Shown here piece after piece: positions 5,033-56,700 of a stretch of 64,000 nt of DNA. Location: contig NC_037600.1 in the NCBI RefSeq assembly GCF_003073045.1, forward strand, positions 12,016,758 through 12,080,757, read 5' to 3'. Position 1 is the stretch's first letter; the number at the start of each line of letters is the position of its first letter. The notes beneath the pieces are model-generated. The model made no database searches. It was not told where the DNA came from and saw only the letters and a list, made by a program, of their open reading frames with translations. This DNA is from Pomacea canaliculata. Taxonomy: Eukaryota > Mollusca > Gastropoda > Architaenioglossa > Ampullariidae. Both the position numbers and the translations under genes were made by a program.

Positions 5033-5587
5033 ATGGCTCTCTCTCGAGTTGTCCTTGCCGTCTTCGCCGCCTGCATTGTGTGCGTCCTTTGTGCTGACAT
5101 TCGAGAAAGGTCGCAGGATTTTGAAGATGGTAAACTGCCTTTAACTTAGTGTAATTTATACAGCTTCAATCGATCAAGTTATAAGAAAAAACAAAAATTT
5201 TATTATGCTTTTTCCATCAGAGAGTGTTAACAAAGTCCCACCTTTTTTTTCACGCATTTATTTAAAACTTTATTATTTTTAAAAACTTTATTATTAAAAC
5301 TAAAGTTTGCAAGGATGCTATACAGAGCTTTGGCAACCTTCCTGAAAAAAAGGGTAACGTGCTTTACCTCCCTTACAGCACCTCTTTTCCGCGAGAGGAG
5401 ATCGACTTATGGTGGCTACGGCCACGCATACGCCCACACTGGATATCCCACCTACCACCGAAGCTCCTACACCACCTACTACCCAGGACACGGCTACGGA
5501 GGCTATGGCAACGGGTACGGCTTCGGTGGCCATGGACACGCTGGCTATGGCAACGGGTATGGCTACGGCTATGGCCGCGGTCACTAG
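5033..5587 (+). CDS. Gly/Tyr/His-rich secreted precursor 2 (2 exons)
   Basis: Exons 5033-5129 and 5379-5587 join in phase 1 (GAAGATG|GTAAAC to CTTACAG|CACCT) to give 101 aa. Residues 1-21 are a clear signal peptide (MALSRVVLAVFAACIVCVLC). A short acidic propeptide follows and ends in RERR (37-40), a furin-like site. The mature part starts STYGGYGHAYAHTGYPTY and is dominated by GYG, GHG and YGYG with no cysteine. The ATG follows a 5' UTR acceptor and matches the signal peptide start. The architecture (signal exon, phase-1 intron, basic site, GY-rich exon) is shared with the genes on both sides, so these are tandem paralogues. AATAAA at 6100-6105 is a plausible 3' end. Role unknown: extracellular matrix, shell, mucus or antimicrobial. 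Confidence 0.82.
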
Positions 5588-9843: not shown

Positions 9844-11721
9844 ATGGTGTCGGCGAGATCTCTGCTGCTGGCCAGTGCGTGTCTGGTGTGCGCCCTCGCT
9901 GCTGACCTCAGTAGAAGGCCCTCCGCAGCTGACGGAGCTCTCACATCTCAAACCTCCATAGGTATGTACATGTATTCTATGTAGGTACACAAGTACTAGG
10001 AAGTAAATGAGAATGTATACCAAGAAGTAAACACAAGTGTGCTAAAATGCTATACAAGATGACTGTACATGCAGTTTAAAAATCCATGATACAGCTGAGC
10101 GCCAAAATAAAATGTTTTCGCGGATAAATAATCTGCAGCTTATAAATAACATTACCATTAAAAAAAATTAACATCTGATGACTAACTTGGTGCACTTCAT
10201 AGTTTGATCGAAAGGATAACTCTTCTTAACCGACTAAGCCGGGATTTGTCGTTCTTTTTGCTGACGCTGCAAGGTCTTGCAGGTCCTGAGTTAACAAGAA
10301 ATAAATAATGGATAACGAAGAAACGGCTGTGAGAATTTTCCTAATCTATACATTTAACCTGCCTCCTGATATTAACTTGTTTTTTGCTAGTCATAACGTT
10401 TTTCAATCATTTCTACCGACCACTCCATTACCACCTGTTTACCTACCCGCCCGTTGTCTTCTTTAACCCTGTGGGGACGCTGCTTCGTTTTCTATGTCAG
10501 ATGCTGTGTACAGCTAACTTGTCGACTTGCTTGTCTAATGATAACAGCAACATTTTCAGATGTTCTGGAACTGTTAAGATTGTGGAATCCCCATATGCTT
10601 CAGGTTCAATATATTAACAAGTCACTGGAAACAATTATAACAAAGAATATATGATATGTCATTATATAATTAGAATCTTATCTATTATATAATAAGAGTA
10701 GAAAAAAATATTACTACGGCATCAATAATAATAAAGTATAAGAAACGTGTTTTGATATTTAAAAATAATTATTAATAAATATTTTACTGCTACCAATAAT
10801 AATCAGCAAAAATGTTATGGTACTGAGAAGAGAAAATGCCGACCAAAACAGCAATGGTACTAGAATTGAACCCAAAGCTGAGAAGAACTGCAGCACAGCA
10901 GTAGATTACTTGGTAGTCGCTTGCAACTACCCATACACCACTATACACCAAGATGATTATGATGACGGTGGTAGTGGTGGTAGTGATGTGTTTTTATAGC
11001 GATTTCCCGCACTTTAAAGAAAGCTCAGACTCTACAAAAGTAGAAAATAAATATACAGATCATCACCATTATCATTCAACTTCGTAAAATGGCCGTTATA
11101 CGAATAGACGCCCTTGAGCCAAAATGGTGGCGCACAGATCGAGCACATCTCTTACCTTGTCGTGTCTTTGCAGGCCGCAACAAGCGCTCAGGGTACGATG
11201 GCGATTATGGTGGAAGCTATGGCGGAGGCTATGGCGGAGGCTACGGCGGAGGCTTTGGCGGTTACGACGGCGGTTACGGGGGATCCTATGGCAGTAGTTA
11301 CGGCGGCTCCTACGGCCACGGGAACTACGGGGGCCACTACGCCAAGACTACGGTGGACGTGAAGTACGGCGCCCCGCACTACACTTACGACTACAAGGAA
11401 TACCCACTGGGCCACAGCTACCACAGCAACTACGACAACTACGGCGGCTATGGCGGCTATGGCAGCTACGGAGGGTACGGCAACGGTGGCTACGGCATCG
11501 GTGGCTACGGCATGGGCTACGGAGGATACGGCTATGGAAACACTGGCTATGGCGGTTACGGCTATGGAAGCTCTGGCTATGGCGGTTACGGCTATGGAAG
11601 CTCTGGCTATGGCGGCTATGGAAACGACGGCTATGGTTATGATAGTTATGGCCACGGTGGCTATGGGAATGACGGTTACGACGGCAACAACCACGGATAC
11701 GGATACAACACTTATGGCTAA
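9844..11721 (+). CDS. Gly/Tyr-rich secreted precursor 3 (2 exons)
   Basis: Exons 9844-9961 and 11174-11721 join in phase 1 (CCATAG|GTATGT to TTTGCAG|GCCGC) to give 221 aa. Residues 1-20 (MVSARSLLLASACLVCALAA) are a signal peptide. A propeptide of about 20 residues ends in RNKR (40-43). The long mature region begins SGYDGDYGG and consists of GYGG, SYGG and YGYG modules, interrupted by a less repetitive segment (KTTVDVKYGAPHYTYDYKEY) that is Tyr/Lys-rich and could be a cross-linking or folded spacer. No cysteine occurs after the signal peptide. TATA at 9688; possible AATAAA near 12454. The frame continues open upstream of 11174, but those codons are intronic. The largest of the three paralogues; a structural secreted protein is most likely. 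Confidence 0.82.
11545..11604 (+). repeat. 30-bp coding tandem duplication
   Basis: Two identical 30-bp units (11545-11574, 11575-11604) encode GYGGYGYGSS; a diverged copy precedes them. Identity at silent sites indicates recent slippage or unequal exchange. Confidence 0.85.
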
Positions 11722-48036: not shown

Positions 48037-51345
<3,309 letters not shown>

Positions 51346-52146: not shown

Positions 52147-53122
52147 TCAATGCACACCAACGTAATTTCTAGATGCTACTTTTAGGGAAGGACACGTAAA
52201 CTTACTGCACAAAAGATTTATCAGATAAACGAAAACAAAAATATTTTGTATTAGCATACTCATATTAGAAAAAACACTATAAATAGTTTGTATTTTTCTA
52301 ACGTTTTCACGTGTTTCTTCACATTTTGTTTATTTATCATTAAACTAATTCTGAGTTCAGTATTCTACAATAATTTTAGATGCTTAAAAAAAATTTTCAA
52401 ATCGATTGCATGCTAATTACAAATATACCAAATATTGTATAAATAACTGAAAAAGTCGCTTAAGACGTGGTTCTCGTTATATCTCGAAGTTTCGAGAAAC
52501 ATTGTACTTCCGTCGCCCTCTTAATAGCACGTGACTTCCTCCTTCTCGTTCTTTCCTCTCACGTTGGTGGAGCCGGTCGGACCAGAGCCTATAGTAGAAT
52601 GGAGAATCTTCAGATGATATCGTTCATAAATGAACTCACAATGAAAGAAGGTGATTATTGCTTGTCTCTTTATCATTGAAAGGCGATAAAAGATATTAAG
52701 GTTGTAGGCCATTTCTTGTCGCGAAAATAATTATTTTACCACTTCGTTAACTACGAAGTGCACGTGGTTCCTGACCTGTTCATATCAAACGATGCTTGAT
52801 ATTCACTTTAATCAATGATTGCCACTCGACTTACCTGCCAATTAGAATAATTGATTCGTTTGCTAAGTTATCAGACAGGGACAGCACATATCTTTTAAAT
52901 GTCCACTGATGCCAAAATAGCGATTTTAACGAAATTTTCGGCTCTATTCGTTACCAGAAGGTTCGTGATGTTAGTGGTTAGTGATCTTTAGCAGTCCACG
53001 GATGTGGGAGGAAATGCGGTAGCCAATAGGACTAGTGGCACGAATGTTCCGTTTGAAAATCTTACTGTCGTGGGTTTTCTGACCAAAGGAATGCTGCTGT
53101 ATATTAGCGTTGTTACAAGAAA

Positions 53123-53201
53123 CTGCCTGTGATGACCATATTTGCTACTCTTGACATTGAGGAATGACGAAAATCTAACCACCTGTCTTCAGGTCTGAGG
53201 C
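53123..53201 (+). ncRNA. SNORD76: Box C/D snoRNA, SNORD76-like
   Basis: Terminal stem TGCC/GGCA, box C GTGATGA (53128-53134), box D CTGA (53194-53197). The guide ATTTGCTACTCTTGA matches recalled human U76 and is complementary to 28S AGUAGCAAAU. The second half (AATCTAACCACC...CTGAGGCA) also echoes U76. Confidence 0.8.
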
Positions 53202-53799
53202 AAAGTGTGCTTTTAGATTAAATGATCAGGTTCTTTTTGCATAAATCATGGCAAGATTGCAAAGGGTGCGAGTCCTCCAAATCGTTCATTTTGTAACTTC
53301 TCAAATCTGCGCCGGTAACTTTTTTTACACCCTAGTACTTCATTTGGTTAATGTATTTAAAGAGGTGAAGATTGCTTTGAGTGGAAACCAAAGACGTAAG
53401 ATCTTTTTTCCAAGTAAAAACATTCTTTAACCTTTTGTGGCATTTATAGCAAAAGATGGGGGCAGCTGTATAAGCAATCCATGACGACTGCTTCAGATTA
53501 TGTATGTAAAAATAAACCTGCAAGTGATATCAACTATTTTTGTCACTGAATCCACTGTTTTGATGTCAGTAGTGTACAGTTGGCGACGCAAGTACGAATA
53601 GTAAAAGCCTTTTCTACAAAGAGCTGTTGCAAAAACATTGTTCTGATTTTATGTTAATTTTCATTTTCAGGCTTTGCTAATCATTTAGCAGGTCTTTGTG
53701 CATTTAGGAACAGCTGGCTCAGGCTTTCACATAGAAGAGGTGGGTTAATTGTCATGCATGATTACTGTTATAGGGTTGAGTACATCATTGTATCCTGGT

Positions 53800-53867
53800 C
53801 AAGTTAATGATGTACTTACTTTTCTGACACTGATCTGCATTGATGTCGCATTATCAACTGAAACTTG
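53800..53867 (+). ncRNA. Box C/D snoRNA candidate, unassigned
   Basis: Stem CAAGTT/AACTTG, box C-like ATGATGT (53807-53813, one mismatch), D' CTGA (53824-53827), C'-like TTGATGT, box D CTGA (53858-53861). Target not recognised. Confidence 0.55.
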
Positions 53868-54320
53868 ATCTGTTTTAAGTAAAATACTTAGCTGGTGTTG
53901 CAAGTCAGTTCTCTTCTAAAAAAAAAACTCTAGTGTTTCACGATTGTCATGCATGATTAAGTACTAATTGTTACAAAGACTTGCTAATTTTCATTTCTTA
54001 CCAACATGGCTAAGTTTCCAAGATTAAGAGGTTGTTTTTTTTTGTTGTTTTTTGTTTTTTTTTTTTGTTTTTTTGTTTAGTTTTGATGAATAGTACCGTG
54101 TATGTAAAACCCAAGCCATATTACATGCCATTTCTGTCCCGTTGCATGACCTGGTTTTCTTGCCTTATGGGTCTGTCAACTAAAAGCCAAAAGGAAAGGG
54201 GTCGACTCCCTGGGCAGAGTTGTCTAATTTTTATGGAACACATTTTTGAAGCATAGATTGTAGCAATAGTTTTTCACAGGGTTAAAAATTTATACCTTTT
54301 AATAATAAATTTGTTTTTGT

Positions 54321-54397
54321 GCTCTCTGTGATGAAACTTGGAATTACCGTTTGATCTCCAAATGAAACCATCTGCGGCTAATTTTTCTGAGGAGGGC
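54321..54397 (+). ncRNA. Box C/D snoRNA, 18S guide (paralogue 1)
   Basis: Seven-pair terminal stem GCTCTCT/GGAGGGC (with wobbles), box C GTGATGA (54328-54334), box D CTGA (54387-54390). GGAATTACCG at 54340-54349 is complementary to the universal 18S CGGUAAUUCC helix, upstream of a D'-like TTGA. The predicted target is the U of GGUAA, probably Um578 of yeast. Confidence 0.75.
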
Positions 54398-54604
54398 ATT
54401 CAATAATTCACTTAAATATGGATTAGTGTTGCATGCAATGGCGCTTATCTTTTTTTTTTTTTTTTTGGAAGGTGGTGACTTGGCCGGCACATGAAAACTG
54501 CACTTGGTTTGCTACTGACAGGTATGTGCATGTTGCCTTGTCCGTTGATAAAAGTTTGCTGTTGAAAATGAATGGAGTGTCTTGAAGTGCTCAATTTTAT
54601 GCTT

Positions 54605-54684
54605 GTGCTTGCTGTGATGATAAATGGAATTACCATTTGATTTATTATGAAACAATCAGCGGCAATTCTTTCTGATCCGAGCAC
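54605..54684 (+). ncRNA. Box C/D snoRNA, 18S guide (paralogue 2)
   Basis: Stem GTGCT/AGCAC, box C GTGATGA (54614-54620), box D CTGA (54672-54675). Contains GGAATTACC at 54626-54634 and aligns along its length with the snoRNA at 54321 (TTTGAT.., ATGAAAC, GCGGC.AATT..TTCTGA), so the two arose by duplication. Confidence 0.75.
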
Positions 54685-54896
54685 ATTAGATATCAAACTT
54701 ATTTGCTTGAATGCAATTTGCTAACTTCAGCATATGTGTTTTAGGTGACAGCATACCAAGTCAGCTCTTGCTCATGGTTGGTGTAAGAGGTATGTACAAA
54801 AGATGTTCTCGGAATTCTTACACTGTTGTGTGTGGCTTTTTTTGTGTGTGTGTCTTAGGTTTGGTATCTTTGGAAATAATGCGTTAATGTGCTGGC

Positions 54897-54970
54897 TGGC
54901 GTTAATGATGAATGCATTTTCTGATCATTTTGTGATCGATAAGGAATGCCCCCGACTGAGACACCTGCCA
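54897..54970 (+). ncRNA. Box C/D snoRNA, 18S GGGGGCAUU guide
   Basis: Box C ATGATGA (54905-54911), D' TTCTGA, C'-like TGATCGA, box D CTGA (54956-54959), weak stem TGGC/GCCA. The guide AATGCCCCCGA (54945-54955) is complementary to 18S UCGGGGGCAUU; the predicted target is a G in that G-run, possibly the SNORD98 site of mammals. Confidence 0.65.
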
Positions 54971-55375
54971 TCCTTGTGTTTTTCAGTTGACATGAGTCAG
55001 CTTGTGTTTGCTCACTGTGATTTTTTTTCTCCTTAAAGGAAAGTTTTCTCATCTACCCAGTGTTGTGACATTACTCAGCTCACTGTTTAAACCCAGCTGT
55101 TTTGGAGTTGTTACTTAGGTTGAGTTAAAGCGAATAAGTGTCACTTATCAGGAAGAAGAGTAGTTAACACCCTCCTCCAGCAATCTAATAAAGATTGAGA
55201 AAAGACCATCTTTGATTAAAAATTTTCCACTGGCTGGTTTTTAGTAGTCTCTTTGTAAGTGTAGTGCTTTGTTTGTAAGAATGTTTCTTAGTGATGATTT
55301 TCTTACAGTGTTTTAAAACTAATGTGCTACTGGTATAGTACTCAGTTGCAAGAAACATCGAGTACGCTTTCTTTC

Positions 55376-55450
55376 TGCGGCAGGTGATGATACTTTGTGT
55401 TAAATGGGAATCTCTCTGATTTTGTTGATGAGCAACATTCTGATGCTGCA
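55376..55450 (+). ncRNA. SNORD79: Box C/D snoRNA, SNORD79-like
   Basis: Stem TGCGGCA/TGCTGCA, box C GTGATGA (55384-55390), D' CTGA (55416-55419), C' TGATGA (55426-55431), box D CTGA (55440-55443). The guide AAATGGGAATCTCTCTGA matches recalled human U79 and pairs with 28S GAGAUUCCC. Confidence 0.8.
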
Positions 55451-55627
55451 TTTATGGTGATAGGTGGTCTAACGTGATTTTGTTAAGTTGAAACAGCAGT
55501 GCAACATGGCATACCTATATGCAAACTTATTTCATTGAAATTTAGTAAATGTGCTGTGCCGGTTTTAAGATCTAAAAAGGCATTCATGGGTGTAACTGCA
55601 AGGAGCAATTTATATCATTAGGCAAAG

Positions 55628-55691
55628 TGTCTGTGATGATACTCTGAACTCTCTCTCTGATGTGCTGACTGAAACTTTAGTATCTGAGACA
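55628..55691 (+). ncRNA. SNORD81: Box C/D snoRNA, SNORD81-like
   Basis: Stem TGTC/GACA, box C GTGATGA (55633-55639), box D CTGA (55684-55687). The guide TGAACTCTCTC upstream of an internal CTGA matches the U81 guide and pairs with 28S GAGAGAGUUCA. Confidence 0.7.
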
Positions 55692-55859
55692 TTTTCATTC
55701 ATTTGTTTGTTTTTTGTTTTTGGCTTTTTTTTTTTTAAATTGACTGATCAGTATTTTGTTGCAGTGCCTTCTAATTCATGAGGTGGAATGTGTCAAAAGT
55801 AAAGGTGTCATTCTTCAAGGTTTGTACACAGGATATTGCTGTTCAATTACTGTTGTGGG

Positions 55860-55932
55860 TGGCTGTGGATGATGATTTCATAGTTCAGCTTACTGTTGGT
55901 GATGCAAATCTTCGCCCCTATCTGACACAGCC
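55860..55932 (+). ncRNA. SNORD80: Box C/D snoRNA, SNORD80-like
   Basis: Long stem GGCTGTG/CACAGCC, box C ATGATGA (55869-55875), C'-like GGTGATG, box D CTGA (55922-55925). CATAGTTCAGC and CTTCGCCCCTATCTGA match the two U80 guides; the latter pairs with 28S AUAGGGGCGAA. Confidence 0.85.
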
Positions 55933-56219
55933 CACCCTTACTATACCCACTGTTCATGTGTCTTCATCTTTTGTTTGATTTTGTAAATCCTTGCCTTAAA
56001 GAGCAACCTTTCAAATGTTCTAGATTATTTTGGGGTTTGGGCTTTACTACGATAAGGTAAGATTACCCTAGCAGAATAGTATTTTGGCTGTTGCAGTGTA
56101 TGTGAGCATAATGTTAATGATATAGACTAGTGTATACGAGTGTACTGTTACATGTTAAGTAGTGTTGACTCTAACCAAATGTTGACAAATTTTTAAAAAA
56201 ATCCTTGATTTACGTGCAA

Positions 56220-56296
56220 AGAGTTGATGATGACAAAAATTCCGCCATATGATCAGTCATGATTCTAACTGCCTGTTCCATGTGTCTGATGACTCT
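56220..56296 (+). ncRNA. Box C/D snoRNA, unassigned
   Basis: Stem AGAGT/ACTCT, box C ATGATGA (56227-56233), box D CTGA (56286-56289). The region before D reads AACTGCCTGTTCCATGTGT; target not recognised. Confidence 0.65.
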
Positions 56297-56404
56297 GTTT
56301 TATAAGCAGTTAAGTGTAAAAATTTGAAATTTTTCTTGATCGAGACTAAACATGCCCACCCCCATTTTTTTTTTTTGGTTGCAAAAACAAGCATGTTACT
56401 ATTT

Positions 56405-56474
56405 GCCCTAAAGTGATGATGCTAAGATAGGGACAAATGATATTGCGTGATTATTTATCTTATCTGATTTGGGC
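56405..56474 (+). ncRNA. SNORD74: Box C/D snoRNA, SNORD74-like
   Basis: Stem GCCC/GGGC, box C GTGATGA (56413-56419), box D CTGA (56464-56467). GATAGGGACA pairs with 28S UGUCCCUAUC, the invertebrate form of the site read by the human U74 guide GGTAGGGACA. Confidence 0.7.
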
Positions 56475-56700
56475 ATTTCTTACTATCTTTCATTTAATTA
56501 AAAAATGTAAAGTAGCTGTTGTTTTAACTTTTTATTTTACTGTTTTACTGCAGTGATGTGCCAAATCCTTAGAGGTGTGTTCACTGGGGAGAGTTCAGCT
56601 TGCAGCATCAAAAAGAAGAGCTATTGTGATGTCCTACTTCACAAATTAAGCCATTGCAATGATAACAATTTTTATTGCATTAAAAAGATGTTAAAATGTT

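Follow-up and report, generated by a model that had tools for sequence, protein, structure and literature searches.

The vertebrate gene GAS5, which is studied in mammals as an RNA of growth arrest and cancer, is a host gene for small nucleolar RNAs (snoRNAs). Human GAS5 houses ten residents, in the order SNORD74, 75, 76, 77, 44, 78, 79, 80, 47, and 81 (PMC6856654). A chicken gas5-like gene likewise holds ten C/D snoRNAs, with a U80 copy in the place of U77 and one chicken-specific sequence (PMC2653536). Membership has thus turned over within vertebrates as well, and SNORD77 may be a mammalian addition. The open-licence literature searched, as far as its text was available, yielded no account of a GAS5-type host in organisms other than vertebrates, which is no proof of novelty, and the accessible part of a review that names gas5 beside invertebrates mentions no invertebrate GAS5 (PMC13071498). 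Here we analyze a stretch of 64,000 nucleotides (nt) from the snail Pomacea canaliculata (the window; contig NC_037600.1, here C11, 12016758–12080757, in an assembly of 440,159,624 bases and 24 contigs) and describe in it a multi-snoRNA locus that is probably a member of the GAS5 kind, orthologous to the vertebrate gene, in an apparent protostome. Coordinates are window positions unless a chromosome is named.

Results

Ten box C/D snoRNA candidates, A to J, lie on the + strand between 53124 and 56475, in about 3.4 kb, and together they form a real multi-snoRNA locus. Each has a box C (RUGAUGA, or RUGAUGU in B), a box D (CUGA), and a closing stem of 4–10 pairs, that of B being 10 pairs long. 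A blind C/D scan of 52515–56700 found seven on the + strand, missing A, D, and E, and none on the opposite strand. Randomized controls with equal dinucleotide frequencies (n = 200) gave a mean of 0.17 candidates and a maximum of 2, and the 14 other tiles of the window gave 0 or 1 candidate per strand.

The family assignments come mainly from the guides, which were tested against ribosomal RNA (rRNA). The target set held 15,039 bases of eukaryotic rRNA including overlaps and was made up of the snail's own fragments and of L001, a eukaryotic 28S contig found inside the record of a bacterial metagenome-assembled genome (MAG). The test leans partly on L001 because the snail's own rDNA is present in the assembly as broken pieces. 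For 21 guide elements, the best duplex that included the fifth nucleotide before box D or D′ was scored, with 420 shuffled guides as the control. A score of at least 11 was reached by 4 of 21 guides versus 4 of 420 shuffled guides, at least 10 by 7 of 21 (8 with the rounding used for the control) versus 27 of 420, and at least 9 by 10 of 21 versus 72 of 420. Complementarity at the fifth nucleotide fell on the expected rRNA position for eight of the ten snoRNAs (A, C, D, F, G, H, I, and J), and the snail's own rRNA pieces show the assigned duplexes for seven of these eight, the exception being H. We judge this test to be more direct than the covariance test described below.

By guide, six of the ten residents of human GAS5 are recovered at the locus (SNORD76, 79, 81, 80, 47, and 74). 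The site names A391, G1612, A3809, C3820, and C3866 are those that we take to belong to the guides concerned. SnoRNA F (55376–55450), a SNORD79, has a D′ guide that forms a 10-pair duplex at 28S A3809, and the D′ guide of snoRNA G (55624–55695), of the SNORD81 type, forms a 12-pair duplex at 28S A391, seen in the snail's own 28S piece L036. A second element of G scores 9.5 at an 18S place and was left without assignment. The SNORD47-type snoRNA I (56218–56298) pairs through its D′ guide with the snail's own 28S over 9 pairs at C3866, and the SNORD74-type snoRNA J (56404–56475) pairs over 11 pairs at 28S C3820, both in the own 28S piece L019 and in L001, again through its D′ guide. SnoRNA H (55861–55932), of the SNORD80 type, has a D guide with an 11-pair duplex at 28S G1612. 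Its D′ guide lies on A1521, a target of U77/U80 (PMC6856654). Finally, the D′ guide of the SNORD76-type snoRNA A (53124–53202) forms a 12-pair duplex at 28S A2350, the target of SNORD76 (PMC6466398), and the A at the fifth nucleotide is found in the own 28S piece L033 and in L001. An identity of A with SNORD24 was considered and rejected: an over-threshold SNORD24 is found elsewhere, in the RPL7A gene together with three SNORD36 matches, and the D′ guide of that SNORD24 would point to C2352, two nucleotides beyond the A2350 of snoRNA A.

The spacing of the predicted sites provides an internal check. On L001, the SNORD79, SNORD74, and SNORD47 sites assigned to F, J, and I are 11 and 46 nt apart, which is the spacing of 3809, 3820, and 3866, the positions that we take to be the human 28S sites of these three families. 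The D′ site of H lies 91 nt before its D site, and L001 is mismatched at the D′ site. The same distance of 91 separates Am797 and Gm888, the sites of the Neurospora counterpart of U80 (PMC2780460).

Four snoRNAs lie outside this set. C (54319–54399) and D (54604–54685) both carry a guide to 18S U627, presumably the SNORD65/snR77 site, with a 13-pair duplex including 2 G–U pairs for C and a 12-pair duplex including 1 G–U pair for D, the latter matched in a variant copy of the own 18S. The two are similar over 54322–54399 and 54610–54682 and share this guide, a local duplication inside the host gene. B (53795–53872; blind scan, boxes, and stem) and E (54898–54965; boxes and stem) have no family assignment. 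For B, SNORD60 was considered on a D′ complementarity of 13 nt to a 28S stretch that would lie near the SNORD60 site, and was set aside, no copy of this stretch being found in a genome search or in a scan of viral contigs. The D guide of E makes 9 pairs with 18S CGGGGGCAT, no better than controls, and SNORD98 (18S G867), considered for E, is not supported at this near-control level. The U627 site and the 18S stretch of E are 354, 360, and 201 nt apart in three own copies, the own 18S copies being rearranged.

In the fetched stretches L014–L018, 18S and 28S rRNA is spread over three chromosomes in truncated and scrambled pieces. L001–L003 are eukaryotic 28S sequences within contigs whose MAG records carry the labels Gammaproteobacteria and cyanobacterium. 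The plasmid and phage records searched for eukaryotic 28S held none.

Along the locus the order is 76, B, U627a, U627b, E, 79, 81, 80, 47, 74. Types 79, 80, 47, and 81 occupy adjacent slots in both species, as 79, 81, 80, 47 in the snail and 79, 80, 47, 81 in human. The hypergeometric probability that at least 6 of 9 distinct guides are shared is 1.3e-5 with 100 families of which 10 are in GAS5, and 2.9e-4 with 60 families; these family numbers are assumptions, and significance is inflated in that the locus was picked for its GAS5 look. Under these assumptions, six GAS5 residents among nine distinct guides are unlikely to have come together by chance.

Covariance models from Rfam give a more mixed picture. 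Only two families exceed their thresholds at the locus: SNORD79, with 51.5 bits for F against a threshold of 47, and the nematode family ceN111 at the place of H. Among 62 candidates scored in a genome search with the SNORD79 model, F is the sole match over threshold. Below threshold are A with the SNORD24 model (33.4 bits, threshold 41), C with snoR77Y (25.8 bits, threshold 52), D with snoR77Y (19.1 of 52 bits) and snoU30 (25.8 of 45 bits), G with SNORD81 (33.6 of 50 bits, E 0.0015 in 7 kb), I with SNORD47 (28.4 of 50 bits, E 0.519, the top of 9 genome places listed), and J with the fly model snoMe28S-Cm2645 (30.7 of 48 bits, E 0.0032 in 7 kb). No family comes near its threshold for B, with a best Rfam score of 24.6 bits.

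A host transcript and its splicing are predicted from features of the DNA. The predicted first exon (52549–52650) would start in the pyrimidine tract TTCTTTCCTCTC, which resembles a 5′-terminal oligopyrimidine (TOP) start, and would end before a 5′ splice site at 52651 (8.5 bits). Further predicted exons, all on the + strand, are one of 50 nt after C (54472–54521; 3′ and 5′ sites of 13.2 and 9.8 bits), one of 45 nt after D (54745–54789; 5′ site of 8.9 bits, 3′ site chosen by eye and below the scoring cut of 6 bits), one after E (55039–55118; 5′ site GTTGAG by eye, 3′ site at 55039 with 13.1 bits or at 55061 with 8.4 bits), one of 55 nt after G (55765–55819; 3′ site of 6.4 bits, 5′ site GTTTGT by eye), another of 55 nt after H (56002–56056; 5′ site of 11.0 bits, 3′ site by eye), and the last (56554–56690; 3′ site of 9.5 bits), with ATTAAA near its end. 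Predicted exon lengths are 29–137 nt.

Predicted 3′ splice sites lie 60–79 nt after six of the ten snoRNAs. High scores are found for the sites after C, E, and J and a weaker one (6.4 bits) for the site after G, while the sites after D and H were picked by eye. The nearest predicted 3′ splice site to A is 134 nt downstream, and no convincing one was found downstream of B, F, or I. From the end of I to the start of J there are about 105 nt without good splice sites, and these two snoRNAs may share one intron. No ATG frame exceeds 45 codons, the length of the longest, in the partial nine-exon model (the frame check used the alternative 3′ site 96 nt after E), and the host gene is apparently non-coding.

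Upstream of the predicted start are a three-unit heat-shock element (52486–52498, one of two in the window) and a CACGTG E-box (52528–52533, one of nine in the window), both in the stretch that separates HSPA5 from the host gene. In flies and vertebrates, snoRNA genes have been reported as Myc targets (PMC4430873).

Chromosome linkage was examined with DARS2 and RC3H, both chosen before looking. Together with ZBTB37, these are the genes that we take to be the neighbors of human GAS5. A model of the bacterial-type aspartyl-tRNA synthetase gave nine matches, of which six, including the four best, lie at C11:18.11–18.15 Mb, and the best DARS2 piece has a mitochondrial aspartate-tRNA ligase as its top match among solved structures. 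The sole Roquin-domain match, for RC3H, lies over its cut-off at C11:2.22 Mb. C11 makes up 24.3 of 440 Mb, or 5.5% of the assembly, and the chance that both tested neighbors (2/2) fall on it is about 0.003. As a positive control for deep host linkage we used SNORD24 and SNORD36 in RPL7A. The snail RPL7A gene (L045; C11:16390589–16393663) contains an over-threshold SNORD24 and three matches to SNORD36, along with a SNORD53/92 match below threshold. SNORD24/36 presumably reside in RPL7A in human also; with this arrangement kept, a snoRNA–host linkage of such age has been retained at least once more here.

A neighbor of the locus is HSPA5 (BiP), whose coding region with introns occupies 48040–51345 on the − strand, as identified by Pfam HSP70, best PDB matches to BiP, its frames, and a KDEL end. 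It is divergent from the host gene, with about 1.2 kb between it and the predicted start. Also present in the window are a MAN1B1-type mannosidase and, on the opposite strand, pieces of WW and PIN type with a resemblance to what we take to be SWT1. Open frames at 61–474, 5231–5587, and 11044–11721 are rich in GYGGYGG repeats and presumably resemble glycine-rich secreted or shell-matrix proteins.

These results bear on an earlier note on this DNA, which had proposed a GAS5-like host with at least ten box C/D candidates bearing terminal stems. Boxes and stems confirm ten, seven of which the blind scan also found, and a GAS5-like host with a shared set is supported by the guide test and the two linkage tests. 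The five GAS5 types named there (74, 76, 79, 80, and 81) all hold by guide, with the count now six, SNORD47 having been missed. Of the remaining candidates, two prove to be duplicates of an 18S U627 guide from outside the GAS5 set and two are without a family. The pyrimidine-rich start is seen as the tract at 52549, and the order is indeed unlike that of the human gene, which is here corrected to ten residents. Covariance models bear the note out for SNORD79 and, through ceN111, at the place of H; most families stay below threshold, and the SNORD74 model omits J.

Discussion

We put at roughly 75% the probability that this locus is a GAS5-type non-coding multi-snoRNA host gene inherited from the bilaterian ancestor. 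As judged from the DNA, descent of the host locus from an early bilaterian is likely, and the six shared guides most likely descend with it. Several observations weigh against this. The order of the snoRNAs is not that of human GAS5, and two U627 guides, which are not GAS5 residents, and the family-less B and E are present. The SNORD81, 47, 76, and 74 types fail or miss the curated Rfam thresholds, the SNORD74 model search does not have the place of J among its listed matches, no Rfam match for SNORD75, 44, or 78 is listed within 7 kb, and a separate SNORD77 type was not recognized among the ten snoRNAs. The 9-pair duplex of I is equalled or exceeded by 72 of 420 shuffled guides. The exons near A, B, and F, as well as any between I and J, are poorly modelled. 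On the side of linkage, each DARS2 match at C11, taken as a single exon, falls short of the family cut-off, the remaining three of nine lie on C12 and C3, and distances of about 6 Mb for DARS2 and about 10 Mb for RC3H make the linkage chromosome-scale and not local. In addition, Hoeppner and Poole find that the intronic positions of ancient snoRNAs are unstable across eukaryotes; the accessible part of their paper makes no mention of GAS5 (PMC3511168).

Some of these points would also fit an independent assembly of the locus in the snail lineage from mobile C/D snoRNAs, with the six shared members brought together by chance or by a tendency of TOP hosts to gather them. SnoRNAs do move between hosts (PMC3511168), four of the ten members, as well as the order, are not those of human, and the locus contains the local duplicates C and D. 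However, chance would lead one to expect far fewer than six of nine distinct guides, four of the six shared members are adjacent in both species, and both of the tested GAS5 neighbors are on the same chromosome, so that we consider independent assembly unlikely. It is also conceivable that the snoRNAs are real and are made from several promoters or from a polycistronic precursor, with no single spliced transcript. Such clusters are reported for plants and many fungi, and the want of good splice sites at several exons and in the gap of about 105 nt between I and J would agree with such an arrangement. The position of six snoRNAs 60–79 nt before predicted 3′ splice sites, a spacing typical of animal intronic C/D snoRNAs, argues instead for splicing and makes this explanation very improbable. 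C/D-like motifs arising by chance in AT-rich intergenic DNA would fit the low scores of several families, but the randomized mean of 0.17 candidates compares with seven observed, two Rfam matches exceed threshold, and the rRNA guides fall at known sites; scan, Rfam, and guide results together have, in our view, already refuted an artefact.

It is possible, and we offer it tentatively, that GAS5 was already a TOP-type multi-snoRNA gene beside HSPA5 in the bilaterian ancestor and that, after the vertebrate duplications, the 9q33 copy retained HSPA5 and the 1q25 copy GAS5. Human HSPA5 and GAS5 are at 9q33 and 1q25, respectively, in regions that we take to be paralogous from those duplications, and this paralogy would fit an ancestral HSPA5–GAS5 neighborhood.

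We infer a mechanism of expression of a familiar kind. From a single promoter, RNA polymerase II would start at the TOP-type oligopyrimidine tract near 52549, and the short-exon transcript would be spliced and serve as a carrier of snoRNAs. The introns would be debranched and trimmed to C/D snoRNAs, each of which would direct fibrillarin to one or two rRNA riboses for 2′-O-methylation. The spliced RNA, with short frames only, would probably decay, as has been reported for spliced gas5 RNA in human and suggested in zebrafish (PMC6954239).

If true, common descent would place GAS5 among the oldest traceable non-coding host genes, with its intronic guides holding it while the exons turned over. 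To find these guides again in a protostome counterpart would speak for the snoRNAs, and not the spliced long non-coding RNA (lncRNA), as the part preserved in evolution, and it would provide a long-lived test case against the view of freely drifting snoRNA positions. The age of an lncRNA gene would also become testable through simple surveys of invertebrate genomes.

Set beside known systems, the finding is surprising for its age and ordinary for its mechanism. The C/D clusters of Neurospora resemble the snail locus in having hosts of little coding potential and are compared to gas5 by their authors, who also state that their snoRNA composition differs from that of gas5 (PMC2780460). Uhg1–Uhg8 of Drosophila are likewise protostome host genes with snoRNA clusters (PMC13228274, PMC5932544). 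From vertebrate GAS5 the snail locus differs in its order, in that the SNORD75, 77, 44, and 78 types are not recognized in it, and in its addition of two U627 guides and two snoRNAs without a family. It also adjoins HSPA5 and not ZBTB37/DARS2, which we take to be the human neighbors. What it has in common with GAS5 of human and chicken is a set of ten C/D snoRNAs, placed here in the predicted introns of a putative short-exon, apparently non-coding host, a predicted pyrimidine-rich start, and, with human GAS5, six guides.

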